Origin: Pelagomonas calceolata
Lineage: Eukaryota; Sar; Pelagophyceae; Pelagomonadales; Pelagomonadaceae
Reading direction: 5' to 3'
DNA length: 64,000 nucleotides
NCBI GenBank assembly: GCA_918797485.1
Contig: CAKKNE010000001.1
Location: forward strand, 62,001 to 126,000
Under the pieces are notes generated by a model. The model was not told the origin of the DNA and did no database searches. It saw only the letters and a list, made by a program, of their open reading frames with translations. Shown in pieces: positions 5,827 through 59,561 of the stretch. The position numbers were made by a program, and so were the translations under genes. Position 1 is the stretch's first letter, and every line of letters begins with the position of its first letter.

Positions 5827-7952
5827 TTACACATCATCCATACACTCATCGACCCCGACCGCGCCGCCGCGCCCCGCCACCAGGAGCCTTCCACCGGAAA
5901 ACGCGACCGCCGCCGCGGCATCAAGATCCAAACAGCGCACGGGCGCCGCGGCGCGCAGGACGGCGTAAATCGGCGCGCGCCGCGTCGAAGACGAAGACGC
6001 GGCCGTCGACGGCCGCAGCCGCCAGGATGGGGCGCGGGCCGGGCCGCCAGGCCGCGTGCGCCCAGCGCGGCCGCCGCGGCGCGACGCCAAGCACCGGCGC
6101 CTCGCCGCGGTCGAGGCCCGGCGCGACGCACGCGAGCGCGCGCCCGCCCGCCGCGAGCAACCAGCCGCCTCCCGAAAATGCGACGACGCGCACCGGCGCC
6201 TGGAAGCCCGCCCAGGTCGTGACGTCGCCGCCTCCATATATTCGGACGGCCCCGTCGAGACAGCCCGCCGCGTAGCGACCTTTGCGAAGCGCGAGCGCGC
6301 ACACCGCGGCCGGAGACGCGAGCTTCGCGGTCGTGGCGTCGACGACGAGCAGCGCGTCGCTGCCGGCGGCCGCGCCGACGACGGCGACGCCGTCGGCCGC
6401 GGCGAGGGCCGTCGCGGGCCGGTCCAGCGCCAGCCGTTTGACGACGGCGCCCGTCCCCGCCGCGAACAGCACGACGCATCGCGGCGTCGTCGCGGCGACG
6501 ACGTCGGACTTCGCGAAGGCGACGCCGCGGACGGCCCGGTCCAACGACCCGTCTCCCAGTTCAACCGTCGCCGCGAGCGCGCCGTCGGCCGCTGCCAAGA
6601 CCTCGACGCGGCCGTCGTCGAAGCCGACCGCCACGTACTCGTCGCTCGCGGCCACAGCCGTCGCCGCGGCTTTGCAGCAGCGCGTCCAGCGGTCGGCGCC
6701 CGTTGTTGGGTCGACGGCGGCGATCGACGCGTCGTCGACGAGGACCGCGACGCGCGCCGTTGCGGCCACGAGCGTCGCGCCTCGCCCGCGGGACCACGCG
6801 ACCGCGGCCGGCGGCACAGATACGCGCCGCAGGAGCGTCGCGGGCAGGCGCAGCTCGTCCGTCTCGCGCTTTACGAGGGGCAACGCGCGCGCGCAGTGGC
6901 GGTCGCCCGCGCCACCGAGGTCCACGCAGGGCGGCGCGCCCGCGCCCGCGACGGCCGTCCAGTCGCCCTCGCGCCAGGACCGCTCGCGGAGCACGCGGTC
7001 GCCGAAGCCGGCGAACCGCGCGTCGATGACGCGCGCGCGGACGCCGTTGACGCGGATGAAGAAGCGCGAGTAGGCAACCCAGAACCGCTCGTGCGCGCGC
7101 ACGCGGACGCGGAAGAAGCCGAACGAGTGCGGGTCGAGGTCGCCGCGCCACAAATCCCGGACCTCGAAGCGCGGCGCGCGGCCGTCGGCGGCGATGAGGG
7201 CCTCGAGGTCGAGGGTCTCTTTTGTTGGTTTCCATTGCGGCGGCGGCGGCGCGCAAAGGCCGTCGTCGGTCGTCGTCGTCCTGATCCGCGGCGGGCCGAG
7301 GAGCGGCGGCCTCCGTAGACGCAGCGGCACGTCGGCCGCCGGACTCGCGGCGCGTCGTCGCCGAAGCCGCAGTCGGGCAGCCAGCCCTGGGCACGCGGAA
7401 GATCGAGTCGCCGGGCGGCTGTGCGGCGCGCGTCGATGGCGGCGACGGCCGTGGCGCCGCAGTACCTGTGCGTTTGTACGTTACCGTCTACCGGCACGCC
7501 ATCGCCGCGCCATCTATGCAAAGTCTGATTGCTACGCGGACGCCGAACGGGCGTCGTGAACGCCCAGTCCCAGGTGCTCGGCGCCGCGGACCTGCGCGAC
7601 CGCGTTTTACGCCGTCGAGCGGAAGGACGCCGCCAAGGACCGGTGCGGGATCGGCCGCGTCGAGGAGCGCCCAGCTCGGGCGCCGCGTGTCGAACGCGAG
7701 GCGCACGCCCGACGCGTCGTGGCGCAGCGCGAGCAGGTTCCGCCCGTAGAGCGCCTCCGGCAGCTCCTGGTTTGTCGCGCGGCCGAGGCCGAGCTCGCGC
7801 TTCCAGGCCACCTGGCTGTCGGCGGCGAGGCTCCGCTTCGCGACGCTCAGGATGGGGGCGCGTTTTGTTTTTATCGTCCAGTTCCCGGTCGTGTGGGTTT
7901 TTGTTATGGCTTTGCCGGCGGCTAGGGTTGCGGCTTGTTCGTCGGGGTACAT
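5827..7952 (-). CDS. TIP41-like protein fused to a C-terminal beta-propeller
   Basis: TIP41/TIPRL proteins bind PP2A-type phosphatase catalytic subunits and act in TOR signalling. From ATG 7952 the first exon has WTIKTKRAPILSVAKRSLAA and LPEALYGRNLLALRH, aligning with the TIPRL start. A middle piece holds WDWAFTTP, and the core HERFWVAYSRFFIRVNGVRA with DRVLRERSWREGDW matches the conserved TIP41 block. Without any stop, the same open frame (7330 to 5921) continues into about 300 residues of WD-like blades (DEYVAVGFDDGRVEVLAA, LRKGRYAAGCLDGAVRIYGG, AAVDGRVFVFDAARA). One frame break near 5975 leads to the true end (GGAVGVDECMDDV). An intron lies around 7466-7548 and contains the GCGATGGCGT core. 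Exon phase near 7540-7620 is unresolved. Confidence 0.72.
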
Positions 7953-8952
7953 TCTTTTTTTTTTGTTTGGGAGAGCTTGTGCCGCCCACGATTGCGGTGT
8001 GCTGCCGCGTAGACCGGCGTTCGTGCGGCGTTGCTGGTACAGCGTCGGTAGGCCGCAGAGGCGCAGTACACGCCGGCGTATGCCAATACAGCGGATGACG
8101 CGCTTTGTTTGTTTTGGCAGCTGTGCTCTCTCAGTGGTATTTTTTTGCACGGCCGTAGCGCTGGCTTTTTTGGACTTTGAGCTTTGGTTGGTGTTCGGTG
8201 GAGTCCGTGGGCGATTCCTGTGGCAGCGTGGCCACGGCTTGGCCGGTTCAGAGCCTCTAGCTTGGCCCTCTAGCTTTTGGCCCTTTAGCTTTGGCCCACT
8301 TGTTGTTTGGCGCGCGGACGAATTTCCGTCGCACTATACAATTTCATTATTTCCTCCACCCGGAATCGCCTCTGGCGATTCCGGGGCGCCGCGTTCGACG
8401 GCCGCTCGCCTTTGCCCGTGCCCCCTAGACGTGGCCCCCCTTTGTTGTTTGGCTCGCGGCGCGACCGTCGCACTATACGGGTCAGTTTTTCACCCGGAAT
8501 CGCCTCTGGCGATTCCGGCGCCTGCGTTCGACGGCCGCTTCGCCCGGCCGTCGACGCGGGCGCGACCCCACCCCCGACCATGCGCGAATTTTGGGGGGCT
8601 TTAGCCCCCCCCATCTTCACCGCATGAGAGTGCCCTTGTGACTTGTAGGTCAAGCCCGACGGACCGGTGCCCGCGCCGACCTTTGCCTCGGGCGCGTGCC
8701 TTTTGTGAGGCCTTGTGTTGGCCTTTCGGTCCCGATCACAGCCGCGCCGCGAGGCCCAGGCCGCGGTCGTCTGCTCGCACGCTTGCAGACAACCGCGCAA
8801 GCAGCGTCGTCTCAAATGTTCCGCGCGCGGCGCGTGCAATCTCTCGAGAGCGTGGTAGTATTTCTACCCCACCGGCACGCCGTCGTCCCGCTTACGCCAT
8901 CGACGCGACACGCCATCGACGCGACCCATTTTGAAGAAGCGCCGCTTTCGCG

Positions 8953-9220
8953 CGTCGAACGCGAGGCGCACGCCCGACGCTTCGTGGCGCAGCGCGAGGA
9001 GGTTCCGCCCGTAGAGCGCCTCCGGCAGCTCCTGGTTCGTCGCGCGGCCGAGGCCGAGCTCGCGCTTCCAGGCCACCTGGCTGTCGGCCGCGAGGCTCCG
9101 CTTCGCGACGCTCAGGATGGGGGCGCGTTTTGTTTTTATCGTCCAGCCGTCTTTCGTTGTGTGCTTTTTTGTTATTGCTTTGCCGGCTGCTAGTGTGGCG
9201 GCTTGTTCGTCGGGGTACAT
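8953..9220 (-). pseudogene. TIP41 first-exon copy 2, detached
   Basis: From ATG 9220 the sequence repeats the TIP41 exon 1 (WTIKTKRAPILSVAKRSLAA, LPEALYGRNLLALRH, GVRLAFDAR) with very few changes and an open frame. It then runs into intron-like sequence containing two GCGTCGATGGCGT cores, with no second exon behind it. It keeps an upstream GCTAG...CTAGC motif at 9388-9411, so it may still be transcribed as a truncated product. Confidence 0.75.
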
Positions 9221-9387
9221 TTTTGCTTTTGTGAGAGCTGCTCTCTTAGTGGTTTTTTGTGCACGGCCGCCGTAGCGCTGGAATTTTCTTTGCTTTGAGG
9301 CTTGGGTTGGTTGAATGCGAGCCGTGGACGAGCGCTGTGTCTGCGAGGGCACGGCTTTGGGCTGTCCTGGGCTCGAGTGCGCCGTGG

Positions 9388-9411
9388 GCTAGCGGGCTGT
9401 AAGACACTAGC
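9388..9411 (+). promoter_or_regulatory. GCTAG...CTAGC upstream motif, copy 3
   Basis: GCTAGCGGGCT followed by GTAAGACACTAGC, 168 bp upstream of the ATG of the second TIP41 exon copy. The equivalent place in copy 1 (about 8240-8290) has several decayed CTAGC/TTAGC remnants. Confidence 0.6.
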
Positions 9412-10064
9412 AAGCAAGCGCCGTGCCTCGAGGCCCGTGTGTTTGTGATTGGCTCGCAGTAGAAATATTTTTATTATTTCCTTCACCCGGAATCGCCTCT
9501 GGCGATTCCGGGGCGCCGCGTTCGACGGCCGCTCGCCTTTGCCCGTGGCCCCCTGGACTTGCCCCCCCTTTGTTGTTTGGCTCGCGGCGCGACCGTCGCA
9601 CTATACAGGTCGTTTTTTCACCCGGAATCGCCTCTGGCGATTCCGGGCGCTGCTCGACGGCCGCTCGCCGGCCGTCGAACGCGGCGCGACCCACCCGACC
9701 ATGCGCGAATTTTGGGGGCTTTAGCCCCCATCTTCCCGCATGAGAGTGCCCTTGTGCATTTGTAGGTCAAGCCCGACGGACCGGTGCCCGCGCCGACCTT
9801 TGCCTCGGCGCGTGCCTTTTTGAGGCCTTGTGTTGGCCTTTCGGTCCCGATCACAGCCGCGCCGCGAGGCCCAGGCCGCGGTCGTCTGCTCGCACGCTTG
9901 CAGACAACCGCGCAAGCAGCGTCGTCTCAAATGTTCCGCGCGCGGCGCGTGCAATCTCTCGAGAGCGTGGTAGTACTTCTACCCCACCGGCACGCCGTCG
10001 CCCCGCTTACGCCATCGACGCGACACGCCATCGACGCGACCCATTTTGAAGAAGCGTCGCTTCT

Positions 10065-10329
10065 CGCGCGTCGAACGCGAGGCGCACGCCCGGCGTCGTG
10101 GCGCAGCGCGAGGAGGTTCCGCCCGTAGAGCGCGCCGGCAGCTCCTGGTTCGTCGCGCGGCCGAGCCCGAGCTCGCGCTTCCAGGCCACCTGGCTGTCGG
10201 CGGCGAGGCTCCGCTTCGCGACGCTCAGGATGGGGGCGCGGGTGGTGCGGATGGTCCAGCCGTTGTTCGCGTGTGTTGTTGTTATTGCTCGGCCTTTGGC
10301 TAGTGCTTTGTGGGCTCGTCGGGGTACAT
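10065..10329 (-). pseudogene. TIP41 first-exon copy 3, decayed
   Basis: The third copy begins with the same MYPDE start at 10329, but its frame fails within about ten codons. The WKRELGLGRATNQELP block is still readable around 10120-10190. It marks the distal end of the tandem duplication. Confidence 0.65.
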
Positions 10330-11681: not shown

Positions 11682-11790
11682 AAAAAAAAAAGGACCAAAC
11701 GCCTTATCCATTAGGCCATGCGGACGTTTCAGTCCACAGAGGGATTCGAACCAGGTTTCCGACTGGTTAAAGTCGACTCAATCTTTTGCT
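11682..11790 (-). tRNA. Circularly permuted tRNA gene, probably tRNA-Arg, with a T-arm insertion
   Basis: On the minus strand the 3' half comes first. It holds AGATT, GAG, a 24-nt insertion (11753-11776), then GG, T-loop TTCGAAT, CCCTC, acceptor strand TGTGGAC and discriminator T. About 5 nt later the 5' half starts: acceptor GTCCGCA, TG, D-arm GCC-TAATGGATAA-GGC (A box), then GTTTGGTCC and a run of T (11682-11691) that fits a Pol III terminator. GTCCGCA pairs with TGTGGAC over 7 bp, one of them wobble. Removing the 24-nt insertion gives a perfect GAGGG/CCCTC T-stem. The anticodon loop would be joined from the two ends; GTCCT plus AG would give T33, anticodon CCT and A37, but the stem is only 4 bp. 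No second 5' or 3' half flanks it. A decayed tandem tRNA pair is the alternative. Confidence 0.6.
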
Positions 11791-12219
11791 TTCACCAATG
11801 AATAACCGGAGGAGCGTCTCCTTTATTTTTAAGCGATCTATCTCCTCAAAGGAGAGATCGCTGCTTCCCGAGGAAAACGGCCGCGATGTAAATTGCGCTA
11901 GGGGAAAACCTTTTTTTCGCGATTTGACCCCTGCCGCCGCGCGCGAATCGGCGAAACTACACCGGGCTTGCATCAGGCAGACCACAGCAGTGTGCCACAG
12001 CCGCGAGAAAAGCCTGCCGCCTCAAAAACCCCGCTGCACGCTGCAAAAAGCTGCCAACCTGCCAGCCATTGTGGCAGCCTCTCCTCGCGCATCTTCAAGC
12101 GAACGCAAGTCAAGAGGCTACGACCGCGCCGCTGACATCCCTGGCCCTGCGCTCCGCTGCTGCGCGCCGCGCCGTGACCACTGCCAAGCCACCCGCGGGT
12201 CCGTCGTATAGACACAACA
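11791..12219. other. Intergenic stretch with a targeting-leader-like fragment
   Basis: Around 12135-12210 the plus strand reads an arginine-rich block followed by AVTTAKPPAG. It is close in DNA sequence to the leader of the TauE/SafE gene at 15237 (LASRSTTARRALTTAKPP) and to the chimeric gene at 30028. It may be a duplicated presequence cassette. The rest of the stretch shows no gene. Confidence 0.4.
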
Positions 12220-28812: not shown

Positions 28813-30028
28813 TCAGCATGTCTCTCTTGACCCCGAGGGCAACATGGGCGCGCCGATCGGCGCTCGCCGCGCCCAGACGACCCGCGCTCCCACGAGCATA
28901 CCGCCCGCCACGACAGCTCCGCACGCGACGCGGTGCCAGTCAGCGCGTCGGCAGCAGAGCGCGTCGGCCATCGACCGCAAGCCGAGGCGTTTGGCGAGCG
29001 GCGCGGCGTCGGCGTCGTCGGCGCGCACTAGCACGCGCAGCTCGCCCGCCGACGTCCAGACAATCACCGCGGGCGACGCTGTCGCGGCGGCGGCTCGCGC
29101 GCGGCGCGCGCCGACCGTCAGCGCTTCCGTAGCGGCCACAAGGACTCCACGACGCGGCGCCGCCAGGGCGCGCCCTCGGCGCCAGCGTGTCGACGGACCG
29201 CGCGCCCGCGCGCCGCAGCGCGGCGAGGGCCCCTGTGTGAGTACGACTGTCGCGCCGATGATGGCGTCCGGGTCGCGGCGATGGCGTATCGATGCGGTAG
29301 AGGACGGGCCGTGGGCTCCAGGCTTTGCAATGGGCAGCGCCTCAAGCACGTCCACGGGCCCGCCCGCGGGATCAGCCGTAGGCGGCGGCCCTGGGGTCGC
29401 TCGGTCGTAGGAACGCCGCGCAAACGACAAGGCCGTAGTGGCGTGAAGGCACGGCGGCGGACACCGAACATGTACGGGGCGACGGCCAGGGATCTTCGGG
29501 GACGTCCGCCGGCGCGCTCGGGGCTGGAACGGTGCGAGGCGACGACGTCCGCCGCGTGCCCGCTTGCCGGGGGCCGCACGTCGATCGCGTCGACGGCGAA
29601 GACGTCGACCGCGCCTCGGACGCGTGGCGCCGGCCGACCGGACCGAGCCCGCGCCTAGGTCGGCGACGCGCGACGGCCCCGACGCCACGAAGTCGGCGGC
29701 GTCGTCGTTGACGACGACCGGATCGGGAGCGACCGTGACGGCGGCCGCATTCACGTCGTCGGCGCCGGGGGCCGCGTAGTAGGCAGCGGCGTCGGCCGCG
29801 CCCATGCACATGACGTCGAGGGGAAAGGTCCCGTTGACCGCGTGGTGCGCGACGTCCAGCCGAGTCGTGAGTAGAATCGCGACGAAGGCCGCCCACCGCT
29901 ACGCTCCCGAGGGCGCCGGCCGCGACGCCGACGGCGGCCAGCGCGTGCGACTTCGGCGCGGGCGGCGTGGCGGTGGTCAGGGCGCGGCGTGTAGTGGTGG
30001 AGCCGCTGGCGAGGGAGCGGGGCCGCAT
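28813..30028 (-). pseudogene. Chimeric gene: TauE/SafE 5' part joined to part of the 22321 gene
   Basis: From ATG 30028 the leader (MRPRSLASGSTTTRRALTTA) and first membrane segment match the TauE/SafE gene at 15237. After one frame break near 29900 the match continues (DVMCMGAADAAAYYAAPGAD aligned with the TauE GAAGAAAYAADGAVD region). The same open frame then passes into ADFVASGPSRVADLGAGSV, the segment found in the 22321 gene, and on through its intron-like sequence (about 29240-29430) to a stop at 28813. Both parents are in this window. TauE function is lost because only the first quarter remains. Whether the chimera makes a protein is unknown. Confidence 0.65.
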
Positions 30029-31118
30029 GGTCGATCTCTTTGGGTGCTATACGTGCGCGCGCGCTCGGCGGATGTGCTGCAATGCGGCAGCCCTTGGGCA
30101 AGGCCGGTGAAATGCCGCCCTTTCGAGAAGAGCAAGCTTCTGCAGCGCTTTGCGACGGGCCCGAGGGATACGTCGGGCAGCGATGCGGGTCCCCGTGCGA
30201 CACGTGTGGGTGCAGCGGCGCCGCTCTCGTACACATATGTGACATGGTCCGGAGATGACATGGGTCCGGAGATGGTGTCCGGGAAACGCGTCGACGCCGT
30301 CGTTCGCTATTAGATACGTGGAACTACCTAGTTAATAAGACGGGTCCTGGCACCGAGCGCGCGGCCACCTGCGTCGGTCCGCCGCGCCGACGGCGTCGAG
30401 GGCATTCGCACGGCAGGCCACGTCGCCATGACCGCGAGTGCGAGGGCGCCGAGCGAAGCGGGGGCGCCGCCGACGCCGAGGGCGAGGGCGGCACGAGCAG
30501 TTCTCCGCGTGCCGGTCGCCGCGACAGCTCCGCACGCGACGCCCTCCCACAGCTACGCCAGCGTCGTACGCGCGCGCGCCGCTCGCCCAAGCTGGCGCCG
30601 CGACGCGCGCGCCGCTCCATAAACACGGCGCTCAAGGGCAGCGCCCAACAGCACCGGAATCACTGCAGCGCCGTCGACACGCGCGCTGCAGCCTCAAGCG
30701 CCAGTGTCCTCGTACGATGCCGCACCACCATCCCGCCGCAGCGCCGCCCCCACGTCGCTCTCCGCGTCCCGCACGGCGCCGTAGCACCCCCAAAAAGCCC
30801 AAATTTTGGATGACAGCGTCCCAAGCCAAAACCACGAAGCGCCCACCGTGCCGCTGCCTTGTTTGCGCGACGCAGCACCCGTGGGCAGCGGTATGAAGTT
30901 CCAGTACAATGCAGGCAGCCCCACAGACCCCAGACGCCGCGCGCCAACGTGCAAACGCGGAAAAAACCCCATTAACGTAATATATAGAGTAAAAAAATAA
31001 TTTATTCAATTAAAAGAGCACAGGGCCCCGACGGCGCGTCGACGGCGCACGGGGCCGGCCCGCCCGCCTTAATAGAAGTTGTTGGGCGAGCGTAGGCACG
31101 GCCTGGCTCAAAATGAGT

Positions 31119-33560: not shown

Positions 33561-34299
33561 GGCGACGGGAGGGTGCTACGTCGGCGCCAGGCGCGTCGGA
33601 GAATTTTATGTTGATGCCTGCCCCTTGGGGTGGTCGTTGTTCTTGGCTACGCGCGTGTATGTCCTGCTCGCGGGCTCACAGCGTGTCCGTGATCCACCCA
33701 AAAATGGCTGAGAATGGCTGTAACTCCTTCAAAGCGGTGCGCTCGTTTGTCTCGACGTGTCTGAGAGCAAAAAAAAGAGAGATCAGACAGGCAGGAATAC
33801 AAGTCGCTGTAGATAGCACTGACCACTATACTAACGAGGACGTCGTATTGAGCTCCCCGAGCCCTCGCATGCGTGAAAACACGTCTGCGTTCAGGGAATT
33901 GAACCGGAACCAGCAGTCCTTTGAGGACAGCTACTGGTCTCCTGCGTAACCTGGATCTCTGGTTGCACTTCTGTGAGCGCTGGTTTCCCGATGAGCGCAG
34001 CGCTTTTGAATCATTCTCTTCCGGAGGCCAAAAGCTGCTGCTGGTGCTCCGTCGCAGGCCACGCGCTGCGAGTGGCCACCACGGTCAGGGATGCAGTATT
34101 GAGAGCCCGCCTGAGTTCCGAAGTCGGACAGACGCCCTGGCAAGCGTCGCGGCGCACCAAAGATGATGGAGCATCAGTAGCAGGCTCTTTATCTCAAAAG
34201 GCCGGCGTCGCCACCGCCGCACTGATGCGAGGGTGCCAGATCCGCTTGCGGGACAGGGCGTCACGCGAGACGCCGCCGCGACACGTCGGAGAGCATTGA

Positions 34300-37932: not shown

Positions 37933-38817
37933 TCAGGCAGGCGCGGGAGGACCAGGCGGCGGTGGCACGGATGCGAGCGCCGCCGCGAGCTGCGCGTCGA
38001 AATCCGGCGCGGGCGCGGGCGCCGCGACCAGCGCGCTGAGCGTGTAGGCGTTCGCGGGGTCGTAGGGCGGCACGCCCGCCCGCCGCCTCAATTCCTCCAC
38101 TGTTTTCTCGAGCGTCGTGACAAGCTGGTCGGCCACGTCGGCCATCTGTTGGATTTCCCGGTCCAGGCCTGCGTCGATGGCGTCCTGGTGGCGGGTCGCG
38201 GCGATGGCGTATTTGTGGGGTAGATGCTGGCCCTCAGCCGTCGAGCGGCCGCGAGGTCGTGCGCGTGGCGCTCCAACGCAGGCTCCAAACGGCCGCGGAG
38301 CTCGGCCGCGGGGTCAGCCGTAGGCCACGAGTGGGGACCTCGCCGTAGGCTCAGTCGTCGAGCGGTAGCTCGGCCGTGGGCTAGATCATGAGCGCGGCGG
38401 TCCGCCGTCGCAGGCCAGAACCGTCGAGAGGGCTAGAAGTAGAAAGCCAAAAAAGGGACGCGGGACGCAAACGCATCGCCTCCGCCGCGAGAGCGTCCTG
38501 GTCGACCGCTTCTGGGGGCCGCGCGGGCGGCGGTGGCGCGGGCGTCGCGGGCGTCACGGTCGTCGGAGGCATCGCGGGCGGCGCCCACGCGATGCCTCCG
38601 ACGCCCGCGGGCGGCGCGGGCGCCGCCCGCGCGCGCGTGCCGCCGCGCCGCCGTGGCTGCCGCGGTGCTTTTTGCGGGCGTCGTCGCACGCGTCGCCGAC
38701 GGGCTTCGTTTTGGGCCGGCGCTGCGACCGCCGGCGCTTCGGCGGCCCGTGGTCGTCGCGCGGCGGCGACGGCCGCGACACGGAGAGCAGGAGGTCGACT
38801 TCCGACGGCGTTTCCAT
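37933..38817 (-). CDS. Hypothetical nuclear protein with a 304-nt introner
   Basis: From ATG 38817 (METPSEVDLLLSVSRPSPPR) a basic stretch follows (PKRRRSQRRPKTKP), then a Pro/Ala-rich tract. One frame shift occurs near 38625. Exon 1 ends at 38473 (AEAM) and exon 2 starts at 38168, joining in phase 1 to REIQQMADVADQLVTTLEKT and a helical segment. The C-terminus is Pro-rich and ends GPPAPA at 37933. A coiled coil plus Pro-rich tails recalls small Mediator-type subunits, but no family can be assigned. Confidence 0.5.
38169..38472 (-). mobile_element. Long introner-like intron, sister of 35878-36110
   Basis: The donor is GTTTGCGTCC and the acceptor GACGCAG. It shares GGCTGAGCCTACGGCGAGG, the CCGCGGCCG blocks and CCAGCATCTACCCCAC with the LARP intron. 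The acceptor-side core (GCCATCGCCGCGACCCG, then ACGCCATCGACGCAG) is the general intron core of this window. Confidence 0.65.
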
Positions 38818-39030: not shown

Positions 39031-41968
39031 TTAGAACCCCGCAAGCATCCCATCACTCCTCCTGCGAGAAGACGACCACCGCCTCCGCCGCGATGAAGAA
39101 GGAGGCGCAGCGACGCGGACGTCGCGCCGTAAATCGGCGGGAATTTCATCCAAGAACCGCGACGCCTCCATTTGCCTTGAGACGCCCCACGTCAAGCGAG
39201 TCCTAGCCCGCGTCAGGGCCAGCGACTCCTTGGCCCGCGTCATGGCCACGTACAATAAGCGCCGCTCTTCATCCACAGCTTGGGCCAATTCCTCGCCATC
39301 CTTATCAGCAGTGGCGTAGTAGTGCGGCAACAACCCCTCTTCGCAGCCCGCAATGATCACGGTCTGGAACTCGAGGCCCTTCGACGCGTGGACCGTCATG
39401 AGGCGAACTTTAGGGGGTGTCTTCTCCTCAGTGTCGTCGGCGGCCATGTCCTGGTCCTGGACGAGCGCGAGCGTGTCCAGGAACTCGACGAGCTCGCCCG
39501 CGGCGTAGGGCGCGGCGAGGTTGGCCAACTCCCTCACGTTCCGCCAGCGGTCGGCGCCATCCACAGATTCATGTCTCAGGTAGTGCTCGTAGCCCGTGCG
39601 GGCCTGCGTTGTATTAAGCGTCGACGGCGGCGCGGCGATGGCGTCGCGTCGATGGCGTCGCGTCGACGGCGTCGCGTCGACAGCGTATCTCTGTGGCGGC
39701 GTCGAGGCGCACAAAACGCCATCGCCGCGAGGCGCCACACACGTCGAAGGGCCAAGGGACGCCGCGCACGCACCAGCACTTCCAGTAAAAACCAGGCCAT
39801 CGACCCCACGAGGGGCCCGGCGTGGCCCTCCTCGGCGGGGATTGGTGTTGAAGTCGCCTGTTGTAGCTCTCGCAACTCATCCAAAGCATCGGTAAACACC
39901 TTGAGGTTGGAAGCCGCGCGCGCGGGCACCGGACTCTTCGCGTTGGCCGCGGCGTGCAGCATGCCCTCTCCACCCTCGAGAGCTTGGACCCGTAATCGCT
40001 CGAGAGAGCGAGGCCCGACGGCCCGCGGCGGCACGTTCGCAACCCGCTCAAAGGCATCATCATCCTTCGGATACGCGAGTAGTAGTCGTAAATACGCGAG
40101 GACGTCGCGGATCTCCTTCCTCTCAAAAAAGCCTTTGGCGTGCAACAACTGGTACGACACGCCGGCCTTGAGCAGCTCCCGCTCGACGGCTCGCGACTGG
40201 GCGTTCGTCCTGTATAAAACAGCGACGTCGCCCTCGGCTCTCACACACACATCGGCAATCCACCGCGCCTCGTCGTCCTGGTCCTCCAGCTCGACGATCG
40301 ACGGCACCAACGAGCCTTCGCGCCCTTCCAACGACAGAGCGTCCCTTCTACGAGTTGTAGATTCGACGACCGCCGACGCCGCGGACAAGATCGGCTGCGC
40401 GGAGCGGTAGTTCCTCTCCAGTTTAAGTAATCGCGCCCCGAAATCATCGTCATACCGCTGCTGGTTCTCGTAGTCGGCCCCGCGCCACCCGTAAATGGCC
40501 TGCGTGGCACGGACACCGTCGTGATGTGGCCGCGGCTCTCTCGCGAGGCGCGTAGACTCTCTGATGATCAGTGACGATGTGGTGTCGCGTCAACGCCATC
40601 GCCGCGACGGCGTCACGGTCAAGTTCATTCACAACGCCGCGCCACGGACCTGGTCGCTGTCGCCGACGACGAAAACACTATCCGACGCTAAGAGTTTGAG
40701 GACGTCGTACTGCACGCCGTTCGTGTCCTGGAACTCGTCCACTAACACATGCTTCCAGCGGCCCGCGTACTTGGCTCTTGTAGCAGGTGAGTGCTCCAGG
40801 AGCCGCGCCGTCAGCGACAGCATGTCGTCGAAGTCCACCGCGTTGCGCTGCTGCAGCGTCTTTTCATAGAGATCGAAAACTCTCGAGACGATGCGGTCGC
40901 CGTATCCCTCTTTCGTAAGGTCCGCATATGATGATGCGTCGAAGCCCGCGTTTTTTAGGGACGAAATCGCGGACTGGACGCGCGCCGGTTTTATTTCCGA
41001 CTTGTCCCAGCCTAAGCCTACGGGAGGCTTCTCGGCGATGCAGCGGCCACCTGCGTTGTACGACGGTCTCTCACGCGACGATGGCCCCGACGCGGTCCGA
41101 AACGGCTCGAAATCGAAAACGAAACCACCCACGGCCTCGTGAAGATGGCTCAAGGACGCCGCCGCACACAGAGCTTGATCATCGCGGCCTGGTCGTAGAC
41201 CGCGAAGCCGCGCTTAATAGGAGACTCGAGCGCTTCCACGTCGTCGCGCAGCATCGTCAAACAGACTCGATGAAAGGTCCCGACGCTGATGGACGAGGCG
41301 TCCTGGGGGTTTATTTCCTCTTCCAATCGCTCTCTTAACTCATTGGCAGCTCGGTTCGTGAAGGTCAAGGCGAGCACCGACGACGCGCGCGCGCCGCTCT
41401 CCACCAAGTGAGCCACTCGTCGCGTTAACACTCGAGTTTTCCCCGTGCCGGGGCCGGCGACGACTCGTATCGGTTCCGTAGACGCTTCGACGGCGGCGCG
41501 CTGCTGGTCGTTCAGCTTCAGCGGTGGAACGCGCTTCACCTCCTTCTCTTCCACTACTGGTGGTTCCTTTTTCACGGCGTCGAGGATCGTGTGCCTTTGG
41601 TCGCGCGTTTTCTGCTGATGGCATGGCTTGCACAACGCTTGCAAGTTCGACAGGGCGTCCGAACCATTGAGCGCCACGGGCACGATGTGGTCGATCTCGT
41701 GCTCCGGCGGCAGCAAGCAGCCGCAGCCCGCGCAGAGGTACTGTTGATTGAACGCGACCGTCTTCCGCGTTTTGGCCGGTAAAGGTAATCGTTGCGGTTT
41801 CGCTACTACAGAAGCGGCGGCGGCCTCGAAGTTCGTTGTTAGTGGTTCGGCGCTCGTGGACTTCTTCGCGGCTCGGAGCACGGCGCGCGGCCGCCGGGAG
41901 GCTGCTCTGGCCACCAGCGCGCCAGCTCGGAGCGCGAGCATCGCTGCCACCACTGTTCGGATCATCAA
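39031..41968 (-). CDS. HNH nuclease domain fused to a UvrD/PcrA-type DNA helicase
   Basis: Four exons (41968-41170, 41050-40650, 40499-39774, 39603-39031) total 2,499 nt and give 832 aa without any break. The arginine/alanine-rich leader suggests organelle import. Residues about 70-125 form an HNH domain (FNQQYLCAGCGCLLPPEHEI, DHIVPVALNGSDALSNLQAL, CKPCHQQK). An SF1 helicase follows: LNDQQRAAVE (Q motif), GPGTGKTRVLTRR (Walker A), VLALTFTNRAANELRERL, LVDEFQDTN (Walker B), VVGDSDQ-AIYGWRGAD, VAVLYRTNAQSRAVE, VRLMTVHASKGLEFQTVIIA and LLYVAMTRAK (motif VI). UvrD/PcrA enzymes unwind DNA in repair. The added nuclease could couple cutting to unwinding. Introns of 119, 150 and 170 nt contain GTCGACGCGACGCC cores. 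Confidence 0.9.
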
Positions 41969-42063
41969 GGAGAGGTCATAGGCAGTCGGGGAGGCCTCGA
42001 AACCAGGTTGCTCCGACGCTGCCTTAAACGGCTCGGACCGCGGGCTTTCCGCTCAAAATCGGA

Positions 42064-53928: not shown

Positions 53929-55684
53929 ATGTCCATGGTCTTCGACGAGTACGGCCGGCCCTTCATCATCCTGAAGGAGCAGCAGGCCAAGAGTCGCATC
54001 AAGGGCCTGCAGGCCCAGAAACACAACATCATGGCGCATGGCGCTCGGTCTCCGGCTTGCTGCGAACCTCATTAGGCCCAAAAGGGATGGACAAGATGAT
54101 GGTCTCGCCCGACGGCGACGTGACGATCACGAACGACGGCGCGACCATCTTAGATAAGATGGCGGTCGAGCACCAGGTCGCGAGATTACTTGTGGAGTTG
54201 TCGCAGTCCCAAGACGACGAGATCGGCGACGGGACGACGGGCGTTGTCGTGTTAGCTGGTGCTTTGCTCGAACAGGCCGAGAAGTTGCTCGATCGCGGAT
54301 TGCATCCCGTGCGAGTGGCGGAAGGCTTCGAAGCGGCCTGCCAGGTCTCGCTAGAAACCCTCGAGAAGATCGCGGACACGGTGCACTTCGAGAAGAAGGT
54401 GGATGATAAAGTACTGGTCGAGACGGCGTCGACCACGCTCTCGTCGAAGATCATCAACGTGCACAAGAGGAAGATGGCGCAGATCGCCGTACGCGTTTCC
54501 GTGTCTGACACTTCAACGTGGCGGCGACGGCGCGGCCGCGTCGCGTCGACGGCGTCGCGGGCCTCGCAGAGCGTGCTGTTCGAGTTTGGGTGGAAACGAG
54601 ACGCGTCGCTTCCACAACGCAGGTCGACGCCGTGTTAAGTGTCGCGCAGACGGTGGGCGACCACACGGACGTGAATTTCGACCTGATCAAGATGGAGGGC
54701 AAGCCCGGCGGGCGGCTGGAGGAGACGGAGCTGATCAAGGGCATCGTCATCGACAAGGACATGAGCCACCCCCAGATGCCCAAGGAAATCCGGGACGTGA
54801 AGATGTGCATCCTCACGTGTCCGTTTGAACCCCCAAAACCCAAGACGAAGCACAAGCTCGACATCAGTTCGAAGGAGGACTACGACAAGCTTTTTCAGCG
54901 GGAGCAGGCCTACTTCGGGGACATGGTCGAGCAGTGCAAGGCCTGCGGGGCGAACCTCGTGATCTGCCAGTGGGGCTTCGACGACGAGGCGAACCATTTG
55001 CTGTTGCAGGCGGAGCTGCCCGCGGTGAGATGGGTCGGCGGCGTCGAGCTCGAACTCATTGCGATCGCGACCGGTGGCCGCATCGTCCCTAGATTCTCGG
55101 AGCTCGATGCGTCCAAACTAGGCCGGGCCGGAGTCGTGAGGGAGGTGTCCTTCGGCACGACCAAAGAAAGGATGCTGGTGATCGAAGATTGCGCGTCCTC
55201 AGAAGCGGTCACAGTACTGGTGAGAGGCGGCAACAAGATGATCGTGGAGGAGGCGAAACGGTCGTTACATGACGCCATGTGCGTCGTGCGGAACTTGGTG
55301 AGAGATAATAGAATTGTGTACGGTGGAGGGGCGGCCGAGATCGCGTGTAGTGTGGCTGTCAGCAAAGCCGCCGACGCGGCGACGGGTCCCGAGCAGTACG
55401 CCATCCGGGCCTTCGCCGACGCGCTGGACGACGTGCCCATGGCCCTCGCCGAGAACAGTGGTTTGTCGCCGATCGCCGAGCTCACCGCGGTCAAAGCGGC
55501 TCAGGTGGCACAAAACTGCCCGTTCCTCGGCGTCGACTGCTTGCAACAGGGCACGAACGACATGAAGCGCCAGAAGGTCTTCGAGACGCTGATCGGGAAG
55601 CAGCAGCAGGTCCAGCTCGCGACGCAGGTCGTCAAGATGATTCTGAAGATCGACGACGTCATCATGTCCGGGGCCTACGCCTAG
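53929..55684 (+). CDS. CCT5: T-complex protein 1 subunit epsilon (CCT5)
   Basis: CCT5 is one of eight ATPase subunits of the cytosolic chaperonin that folds actin and tubulin. The ATG at 53929 lies in a CCACC context. Exon 1 (53929-54488) and exon 2 (54623-55684) flank a 134-nt intron (GTACGCGTTTCC to AACGCAG). Landmarks: [51 protein letters not shown], then [70 protein letters not shown] and [19 protein letters not shown]. One missing base near 54030 (between HNIMA and the [10 protein letters not shown] frame) would restore a 540-aa protein, so it is probably a sequence error. Confidence 0.93.
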
Positions 55685-57007: not shown

Positions 57008-59561
57008 ATGGCCGCGAGACCCTGGATGGACGACGGCGCGAGCCAGCACTGCCTGCTCTGCCACCAGGCTTTTAGCTTTACGAACCGGAGGCACCACTGC
57101 CGGAGCTGCGCGCGCTTGGTCTGCGGCGCCTGCTCGAGCCGGAGCATGCGTTTGGAGAGCATCCAGCGGCCCTCGTCCTCAATACGAAATGTAGGGACCC
57201 AGCTGGCCAAGACGACGCTGGCCACGGCCGCCTCGATGCTCACCACCACTACAAATGAATCGGAGCGCGTCTGCGACGACTGCTGGGCGCGGCTCGGCCG
57301 CGGCCGGAGCGCGACGCCGCCGCCTCCATCACATCACGCCGACGATGATGTAGCGTATGATGCTGAATTGATGGATGTGGCCGCCGACGGTATCAGAAAC
57401 ATAGCTCTGGAAGTACGGGCGCCCGACGGCCGCGTGCTCAGCGACGGGAATTCGTTCAGTATGACATTGCCATCATCAACGCGCGTCGCGGGCGCCTACG
57501 TCATTGTTACGGCTCGTGATAAGTCCAAGTCGTCGGCAGTGAGGGACGACGTCGTGGGAAGAGGTCGCGTCTTCCTCGAAGAAGGCCAACGACATATCCA
57601 GTTGCTGCGCGACGGTGGTGTTAAGGGCACCGTACTGGTCAAAGCGACGCGGTCCTCGGCGAAGAAACCTCTACAAGTCGCGACGATACCACCTCAAACG
57701 TCGAAACACATGTGGCCCGTGGCTTTATCAGAGTTGTACCCGCCCGGGACCACGGTGCACGACGCCTGTTTTGAGCACATTAATGGTACCATAGTGCCCG
57801 CGTCAGAACAAGCTCTGGACGCCTTTGCCGACGTGGACAGAGGGTGCCTCATAGTCACGTCGCACCGTTTTTTGCACGTGGCTCATACGTTAGATGTTAT
57901 TAGTGTGCCGCACGCGTCCATCTTAAATGTGGAGGTCGTCCAGCGCGACGACGCGTTGGTGCTGGTGCTGACGACGCGGTCCTATAAATCAATAACGTTC
58001 TCGTCGCGCAGCGCCACCAATCGCGACTGGAGCTGGTGCCGCTCCGAGTGGCAGTGGCGCGTCGGCGAGGACCGCTTCTATGCGAGGCCGGAGGCTGTTG
58101 TGATCTGCGTGGAAATCAAATTTTGGACGCCCCACGCCATCGATGCGATGTTGTCTCCGTAGTAACCTAGCTCACTGGTTGATTTTCACACAGGTTGTGA
58201 CGGCGGATCACGACGATAATGACGATGAAGATGAGGACACGGAGCTGCTCTCGAGGCTCGGCCTGAATGATCTCGACGACCGCGCATTGAGACGGAATCG
58301 GCTGAAGCGCTTCATCGAACCTCAGAAGGAGCGGGCGCCGTCACAAAGCGGCGCCGACGTCGACCTAGGAGCAGAGTTCGCCAGGCAGGGCGTGGCCACC
58401 GACGCGCGCTGGCGCTTTACGCAAGCGAATTCGAGTTATGACCTTTGTGCTACGTATCCTCCTCTGCTCATCGTGCCGGCGGCGTTGAGCGACGCCCGAC
58501 TCAAGGAAGGGTCCAGATGGCGGTCCAAGCGGCGCGTACCTGTCTTGACCTGGTACGATCGAGCTAGTGGTGCGGCCTTAATACGAGCATCCCAACCAAA
58601 GTCCGGCATCACGGGCGCTCATGTGGATGACGCCGCTCTCCTCCATGTGCGCGCGGCCGCCGCGCGGAGCCGCGGCGCCGTCGCGGCGCGCTTGGACGAC
58701 CCGACGGCTTTTGATGATGAGGAAGGTTTTGCGAATAGTTCGCCGTACAAATCCACGACGGCGCCGATCTTGCGCATCTGCGACTGTCGTTCTATTGTAG
58801 CGGCCAAGGCGAACCAATTGGCCGGCCGGGGCCACGAGACTACCTCCAAATTAGGTGGTTCGAGGGCCGCGACGCTCGAGTTTCTGGATCTGGAGAACTT
58901 CCACGTCATTCGCAACGCCAAGAAACGGTTGTCAGAAGCTTCGACCTTGGAGGACTACTACCGCGCGTTGCACGAATCGCGCTGGCCCGTCTACGTCCAA
59001 GCACTAATTAGTGCAGCGAAGGTCGTCGCGGATCATTTGGACAGAGGCGATCCTTGTTTTGTGCACTGTAGCGACGGCTGGGACCGCACGCCGCAAGTGT
59101 GTGCTTTGGCTCAAATAATAGTGGATCCCTACTTTCGAACAATAAAAGGCTTCGCCGTGCTCATAGAAAAGGACTTCTGCGCCTTCGGCCACCCCTTCGC
59201 AATGAGAAGTGGATCGAAGGGCGAGGGCGAAGCCGGTCCGGTCTTCGACCAGTTCCTGGAGTGCGTGCAGTCGCTGCGGCGGGGCGCGCCGGCGTCCTTC
59301 GAGTTCACTGAATCATTACTGGCGTTGCTCAAAGAACACGTGTATTCGCGGTTCTTCGGGAACTTTCTGAGGGACTCGGATGCGGAGAGGTGTGGAGACG
59401 ACGCCGTGAGTGTGTGGAGGGTGGTTGAAAGTGATCCGGGGCGCTTTTCTTCGCCGGTCTACGACTCTTCTGCGAGTAGAAGGCTCCCGGTCCTCTCGAA
59501 ACCGTCGGCGGATGTTGAACTAGAGCTGTTGAGGGCGCGTATACGGGCGCTCGAGAAATGA
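57008..59561 (+). CDS. Myotubularin-family phosphoinositide phosphatase with N-terminal FYVE finger
   Basis: Myotubularins remove the 3-phosphate from PI3P and PI(3,5)P2 on endosomes. Exon 1 (57008-58108) and exon 2 (58194-59561) give 822 aa. A FYVE-type zinc finger comes first (SQHCLLCHQAFSFTNRRHHC, RSCARLVCGACSSRSM, CDDCW). A PH-GRAM-like region follows (RGCLIVTSHRFLHVAHTLDV), then the phosphatase domain (RWRFTQANSSYDLCATYPPL, YYRALHESRWPVYVQALI). The active site is HCSDGWDRTPQ, with Cys, Asp and Arg of the family signature present, so the enzyme is probably active. Animal myotubularins usually carry FYVE at the C-terminus, so the N-terminal position is unusual. The single intron is an introner with target duplication. 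The start is the first in-frame ATG. Confidence 0.9.
58105..58193 (+). mobile_element. Introner element with 8-bp target duplication, copy C
   Basis: The target duplication is GTTGTGAT at 58097-58104 and GTTGTGAC at 58194-58201 (7 of 8 identical). The 89-bp element begins CTGCGTGGAAATCAAA and ends TTGATTTTCACACAG, with CGCCATCGATGCGA inside. Splicing GTGGAAATC (58109) to CACAG (58193) joins EAVVIC to VVTADHDD in frame. Confidence 0.9.

Follow-up and report, generated by a model that had tools for sequence, protein, structure and literature searches.

Permuted tRNA genes are a known kind of gene, and 34 of them had been recorded by 2014 in seven species, six algae and one archaeon (PMC3978253). 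The Amorphochlora nucleomorph and Auxenochlorella have been added since; the known hosts comprise green and red algae, nucleomorphs of chlorarachniophytes and a single archaeon. According to PMC3978253, the intervening sequence of the known genes measures 1-74 bp, and in most of the C. merolae genes a TATA-like sequence lies no more than 50 bp ahead of the 3' half. The same review describes green algae as having almost no ectopic introns and calls C. merolae unique in combining permutation with ectopic introns, an example being its tRNA-Gly(CCC), with the junction at 37/38 and an intron at 55/56. The permuted genes in Table 1 of that paper have at most one intron each and junctions at 15/16, 20/21, 37/38, 50/51 or 59/60.

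The window analysed here, a stretch of DNA of 64 kb, very probably holds two genuine circularly permuted tRNA genes of the nucleus, a tRNA-Arg(CCG) gene interrupted by two extra introns and a tRNA-Asp(GTC) gene interrupted by three. The resemblance to the C. merolae permuted genes (PMC3978253) extends to the 3' half coming first, a short spacer, a BHB at the junction, a T-run behind the 5' half and, within one half, an additional T-arm intron. However, both genes differ from the entries of the 2014 table in their two and three introns, respectively, and in their junctions at 30/31 and 36/37; permutation together with two or three introns, and either of these junctions, are absent from that table (PMC3978253). 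The tRNA-Ile(UAU) of C. merolae has three introns with BHB motifs in the D-, anticodon- and T-arms, as here, but is not permuted (PMC9602550), whereas the tRNA-Asp gene adds permutation to three introns and thus comprises four cuts.

Permuted genes are likewise known from Ostreococcus, Micromonas and the nucleomorph of Bigelowiella, although in Table 1 of PMC3978253 20 of the 21 green-algal and Bigelowiella genes have the junction at 37/38 and 20 are intronless. The nuclear or nucleomorph genes of Amorphochlora and Auxenochlorella share permutation with those reported here, and Thermofilum pendens combines permutation with an intron, as here, but with the junction at 59/60 and an encoded CCA, which neither of the present genes encodes (PMC3978253). 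In style, both genes most closely resemble those of C. merolae, with more cuts per permuted gene. In the open-access literature, covered mostly through titles, abstract openings and selected passages, no stramenopile was reported to have a permuted tRNA gene in its nucleus.

Layout and junctions of the tRNA-Arg locus

At the Arg locus, the 3' segment GGTTCGAATCCCTCTGTGGAC, with the T-loop and acceptor strand, lies upstream of the 5' segment GTCCGCATGGCCTAATGGATAAGGCG on the minus strand, with a gap of 5 nt after the discriminator base, an order and a gap that an earlier note on this DNA had read in the same way. Its further claims of acceptor strands pairing over 7 bp, of a perfect T-stem after excision of 24 nt (11753-11776) and of a T-run immediately after the 5' half were borne out: the acceptor strands pair 7/7 (one G-U), the T-stem pairs 5/5 once that segment is excised and the run is T10. 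The D-stem pairs 4/4. The four exons (see the table) tile into a 73-nt cloverleaf in which every stem is paired (G-U included), and this cloverleaf is also the minimum-energy fold. By reading, the conserved bases U8, A15-U48, G18G19, U33, a purine at 37 and TTC54-56 are present, and the discriminator is U73, which is unusual for tRNA-Arg.

Segments of the probable permuted tRNA-Arg locus (11682-11830) and tRNA-Asp locus (33769-33965), in the order in which they lie on the minus strand
Gene	Segment	Coordinates	Strand	Details
tRNA-Arg	Leader, junction BHB strand	11813-11830	-	AAAGGA intron-side helix, GACG central helix, CT bulge on the intron side
tRNA-Arg	Exon, positions 31-37	11806-11812	-	CCTCCGG, anticodon CCG
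tRNA-Arg	Canonical intron, 37/38	11791-11805	-	15 nt; relaxed motif, 3/4 central pairs
tRNA-Arg	Exon, positions 38-51	11777-11790	-	
tRNA-Arg	T-arm intron, 51/52	11753-11776	-	24 nt (the earlier note's excision); weak motif, 2/4 central pairs
tRNA-Arg	Exon, positions 52-73	11731-11752	-	B box intact; discriminator T73
tRNA-Arg	Intervening sequence	11726-11730	-	5 nt; predicted to be removed at the mature ends
tRNA-Arg	Exon, positions 1-30	11696-11725	-	A box intact
tRNA-Arg	Trailer, second junction BHB strand	11682-11695	-	TCCTTT, into T10 Pol III-type terminator
tRNA-Asp	Leader, junction BHB strand	33948-33965	-	AGAGATC intron-side helix, CAGG central helix
tRNA-Asp	Exon, positions 37-51	33934-33947	-	
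tRNA-Asp	T-arm intron, 51/52	33906-33933	-	28 nt; 4/4 central pairs, exon-side helix absent
tRNA-Asp	Exon, positions 52-66	33891-33905	-	B box
tRNA-Asp	Acceptor-stem intron, 66/67	33860-33890	-	31 nt; central helix 4/4
tRNA-Asp	Exon, positions 67-73	33853-33859	-	CGGGGAG, G73
tRNA-Asp	Intervening sequence	33841-33852	-	12 nt
tRNA-Asp	Exon, positions 1-22	33819-33840	-	A box intact
tRNA-Asp	D-arm intron, 22/23	33800-33818	-	19 nt; full hBHBh' form
tRNA-Asp	Exon, positions 23-36	33786-33799	-	Anticodon GTC
tRNA-Asp	Trailer, second junction BHB strand	33769-33785	-	GATCTCT and T8 run

In the folded Arg precursor, the leader AAAGGA pairs with the trailer TCCTTT, beyond which come a bulge of 3 nt (TGG) and another helix, GACGCT/GGCGTT. 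In the minimum-energy fold, this second helix comprises 6 pairs, 7 nt lie in the bulge after it and, at full length, the D-arm is paired with the leader, so that the precursor fold is not the cloverleaf. The fold only hinted at the answer, and the cut sites were first picked by eye from a BHB reading with a central helix CGTT/GACG (4/4, one G-U), bulges TG|G and CT|C and an intron-side helix of 6 bp. The usual rule places cleavage behind the second nucleotide of each bulge, which puts the end of the 5' half at position 30 (11696) and the beginning of the 3' half at position 31 (11812). The ends had previously been placed at about 11691 and about 11790; both have to be moved, the latter since 11791-11805 is a further intron. 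After removal of this intron, C31 pairs with G39, a base that had seemed mismatched, the anticodon stem of only 4 bp described before becomes one of 5 bp and the anticodon, tentatively given as CCT, resolves as CCG, which is still Arg. CGG is the commonest Arg codon (7/21) in the CCT-epsilon exons read, supporting a gene with this anticodon.

With the cuts fixed, the pairing of the central and intron-side helices at the 30/31 junction was equalled by 5/4000 dinucleotide-shuffled flanks and by none of 624 other cut pairs. The motif of the 37/38 intron was equalled by 213/4000 shuffles and 53/371 other cuts, and that of the 51/52 intron by 696/4000 and 79/533. As the cuts had first been found by eye, the Arg junctions were also enumerated systematically, allowing an optional extra intron and requiring a 5-bp anticodon stem, Y32, U33 and R37, together with a central helix of 4 bp and no fewer than 4 pairs on the intron side. 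All three solutions with an Arg anticodon shared one junction and the anticodon CCG, exactly one of them having the 37/38 intron, and when any anticodon was allowed there were 6 solutions, all at that same junction. Shuffled sequences gave solutions with the 37/38 intron in 9/3000 cases, with any Arg anticodon in 32/3000 and with any anticodon in 221/3000.

Joins near 11790 were rejected. ARAGORN named them Arg(cct), Lys(ctt) and others, but in each case there was a mismatch in the anticodon stem, U33 was missing or the loop was poor, and such names give weak support because ARAGORN named tRNAs for many arbitrary joins. The idea that the leader is an inverted copy of the D-arm was also discarded, as its pairing energy was reached by 154/2000 shuffles (430/2000 without the T-run); the local alignment score, reached by 14/2000 shuffles with the T-run, was driven by that run, because the count rose to 396/2000 without it. 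Two further features were read at this locus, a 5-bp hairpin CGACT/AGTCG seen by eye within the 51/52 intron, and a TATA-like sequence, TTAAAAATAAAG, at 11821-11832, overlapping the leader strand of the BHB helix.

A second probable permuted gene and features common to both

The tRNA-Asp(GTC) locus, absent from the earlier note, was reached through a B-box search of the window that gave four matches (at least four were found in 6/100 shuffles). Its five exons tile into a 72-nt tRNA, drawn by ARAGORN as tRNA-Asp(gtc) with G73 and with pairing in every stem (G-U included), and its acceptor strands pair 7/7 once the 66/67 intron is removed. The central helix is 4/4 at all four junctions (36/37, 22/23, 51/52 and 66/67), where the intron-side helices measure 7, 3, 3 and 4 bp and those on the exon side 2, 3, 0 and 2 bp, respectively. 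In the same order, the pairing of central and intron-side helices was equalled by 0, 3, 0 and 0 of 4000 shuffles and by 0/624, 1/453, 2/579 and 1/603 other cut pairs, and enumeration of the acceptor intron gave a single solution for the real sequence, as against 0/3000 for shuffled ones. Two observations count against this reading, namely that the minimum-energy fold of the mature tRNA-Asp is another structure and not the cloverleaf, and that TTTT occurs within the 66/67 intron. By reading, this locus showed no TATA-like sequence in the 50 bp before its 3' half.

At both loci, the anatomy is read directly: the exons tile exactly into cloverleaves and BHB-type pairings place the rule-predicted cuts at exon ends. 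The permutation junctions of the two genes share a 4/4 central helix, 3-nt bulges, an intron-side helix of 6 or 7 bp and an exon-side helix of 2 bp. Overall, the central helix is 4/4 at 5 of the 7 junctions of the two genes, the relaxed 37/38 (3/4) and weak 51/52 (2/4) motifs of the Arg gene making up the rest, and the full hBHBh' form, with more than 2 pairs in both flanking helices, is found only at Asp 22/23 (3 + 3 bp), one of the seven. The spacers of 5 nt (Arg) and 12 nt (Asp) lie within the known range and are free of T-stretches, and runs of T10 and T8, respectively, follow the 5' halves. By reading, both genes have the eukaryal consensus U8, R15-Y48, G18G19, U33 and TTC54-56, and CCA is not encoded. 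The A box (8-19) and the B box (52-62) are each unbroken in both genes, in reversed order, with the introns at 22/23 and 51/52 just outside them, which suggests, from these two genes, that the promoter boxes for Pol III do not themselves tolerate introns. The original proposal of a permuted tRNA gene with a T-arm intron is thus strengthened by the junction BHB, the anticodon CCG and the presence of a second permuted gene in the window.

Default ARAGORN and Rfam gathering-score scans of the window returned no tRNA, so neither gene was detected, a result that disrupted genes would be expected to give. When introns of up to 3000 nt were allowed, ARAGORN called a tRNA-Gly at 29774-30535 and a tRNA-Arg at 38526-38657, the latter being judged a chance fold in a repeat of 80% GC. 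Runs with lowered thresholds gave 299 and 434 calls and were left out of the results.

Alternative explanations

An order in which the T-arm precedes the D-arm is common where tRNA genes stand in tandem, and in 73 of 80 viral loci with this order (the 80 listed out of at least 120) it corresponded to intact neighbouring tRNAs. The present loci could accordingly be decayed tandems, in which an upstream gene without its 5' half and a downstream gene without its 3' half form a non-functional back-to-front pair; a permuted gene could also plausibly have evolved from such a tandem. However, acceptor pairing of 7/7 across neighbours was found in only 2 of the 80 listed viral controls, whereas the Arg locus and the Asp locus without its 66/67 intron both reach it, and ARAGORN finds no intact outer halves beside either. 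In addition, BHB-type pairings stand at the exon ends of two independent loci in which all stems can form, making decay of a tandem very improbable. A gene permuted by descent of which the Arg copy is now a pseudogene is also unlikely, if somewhat less so: the 51/52 motif, with 2/4 central pairs, and U73 might mark lost function, but all spliced stems pair, the conserved bases are present and both the T-run and the junction pairing are intact.

That the resemblance arose by chance, or that the assembly is rearranged here, is scarcely credible. A scan of the window for D-arms matched only those of the Arg and Asp genes, a result that is not significant alone, given that at least two matches occurred in 16/100 shuffled windows, and the B-box count given above was likewise reached by some shuffles. 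A D-arm with a T-loop and a 7-bp acceptor partner upstream, in contrast, was found once in the real window and in 0/100 dinucleotide shuffles; this test detects the Arg gene but misses the Asp gene because of the intron in the acceptor of the latter. A tighter A-box pattern, written after both sites had been seen, gave 2 matches in the window versus a mean of 0.08 in 100 shuffles. As for the assembly, the same architecture with BHB-type pairings recurs at two loci 22 kb apart, and an assembly error would not create such pairings.

Scans of the viral contigs for exact Arg or Asp segments gave no match, and a further pattern in these scans gave four loci. In two viral contigs, at L062:874-925 (plus strand) and L011:5245-5299 (minus strand, near the contig end), a T-arm/acceptor segment is followed after 7 or 10 nt by a D-arm half; the acceptor strands are 7/7 complementary and neither half belongs to an ARAGORN tRNA, so that these may be permuted or degraded tRNA genes.

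Proposed processing and genomic setting

For two genuine permuted genes, we infer transcription, processing enzymes, a circular intermediate and aminoacylation along the pathway described for C. merolae in PMC3978253. Pol III would read the 3' half, the spacer and the 5' half as far as the T-run. The introns would then be removed by a tRNA-splicing endonuclease that recognises BHB motifs broadly; at the permutation junction it would take off the leader and trailer together, and a ligase would join the resulting ends to give a circular pre-tRNA. Excision of the spacer by RNase P and RNase Z would produce the mature ends, with CCA added afterwards. In C. merolae the 37/38 cut comes last (PMC3978253). 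With five reordered exons, the Asp gene would need four endonuclease events and circularisation for a single tRNA.

Tentatively, and with the balance slightly against it, a lineage that is neither red nor green algal, and may be a pelagophyte-like stramenopile, might have independently evolved or retained a routine shattering of its nuclear tRNA genes, with permutation and up to three BHB introns per gene. If true, this would imply a tRNA endonuclease of broad specificity and archaeal style and, as both tRNA genes accepted in the window are permuted and have several introns, much of the tRNA set of this genome may escape standard annotation. The two genes provide a test of how far a eukaryotic splicing endonuclease departs from the 37/38 rule and of whether permutation arose repeatedly. 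Because two standard tools overlook both at default settings, genes of this kind may underlie apparent gaps in the tRNA sets of algae.

The host genome is that of a eukaryotic nucleus, based on its protein families (CCT-epsilon, a FYVE-myotubularin and others) and on the GT-AG introns of the two genes read; one CCT piece searched against phages gave no match. The GC content of the window is 64.5%. For Pelagomonas, PMC9481584 gives 63.6% GC and introns of introner length, with a peak at 210 bp; the two spliceosomal introns read here, of 134 nt (54489-54622) and 94 nt (58100-58193), are shorter than that peak. The 15-mer ACGCCATCGMCGCGA, a pattern taken from the window itself, occurs at 25 places (e.g. 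8894, 24240, 39644, 51314 and 60437) versus none in 100 shuffles, and variants of it lie in both of these introns. The 15-mer may belong to a dispersed element, perhaps one resembling introners; a literature search for the motif yielded no paper linking it to an organism. Its recurrence and the GC content are compatible with a pelagophyte, and so with a stramenopile host, but a GC-rich red or green alga may equally fit. Elsewhere in the window, units of about 1.1-1.3 kb are arranged head to tail at 7684-10260 in two to three copies, pieces of which are 65-100% identical, and at 40632-42052 on the minus strand a single reading frame encodes an HNH domain followed by a UvrD helicase domain.
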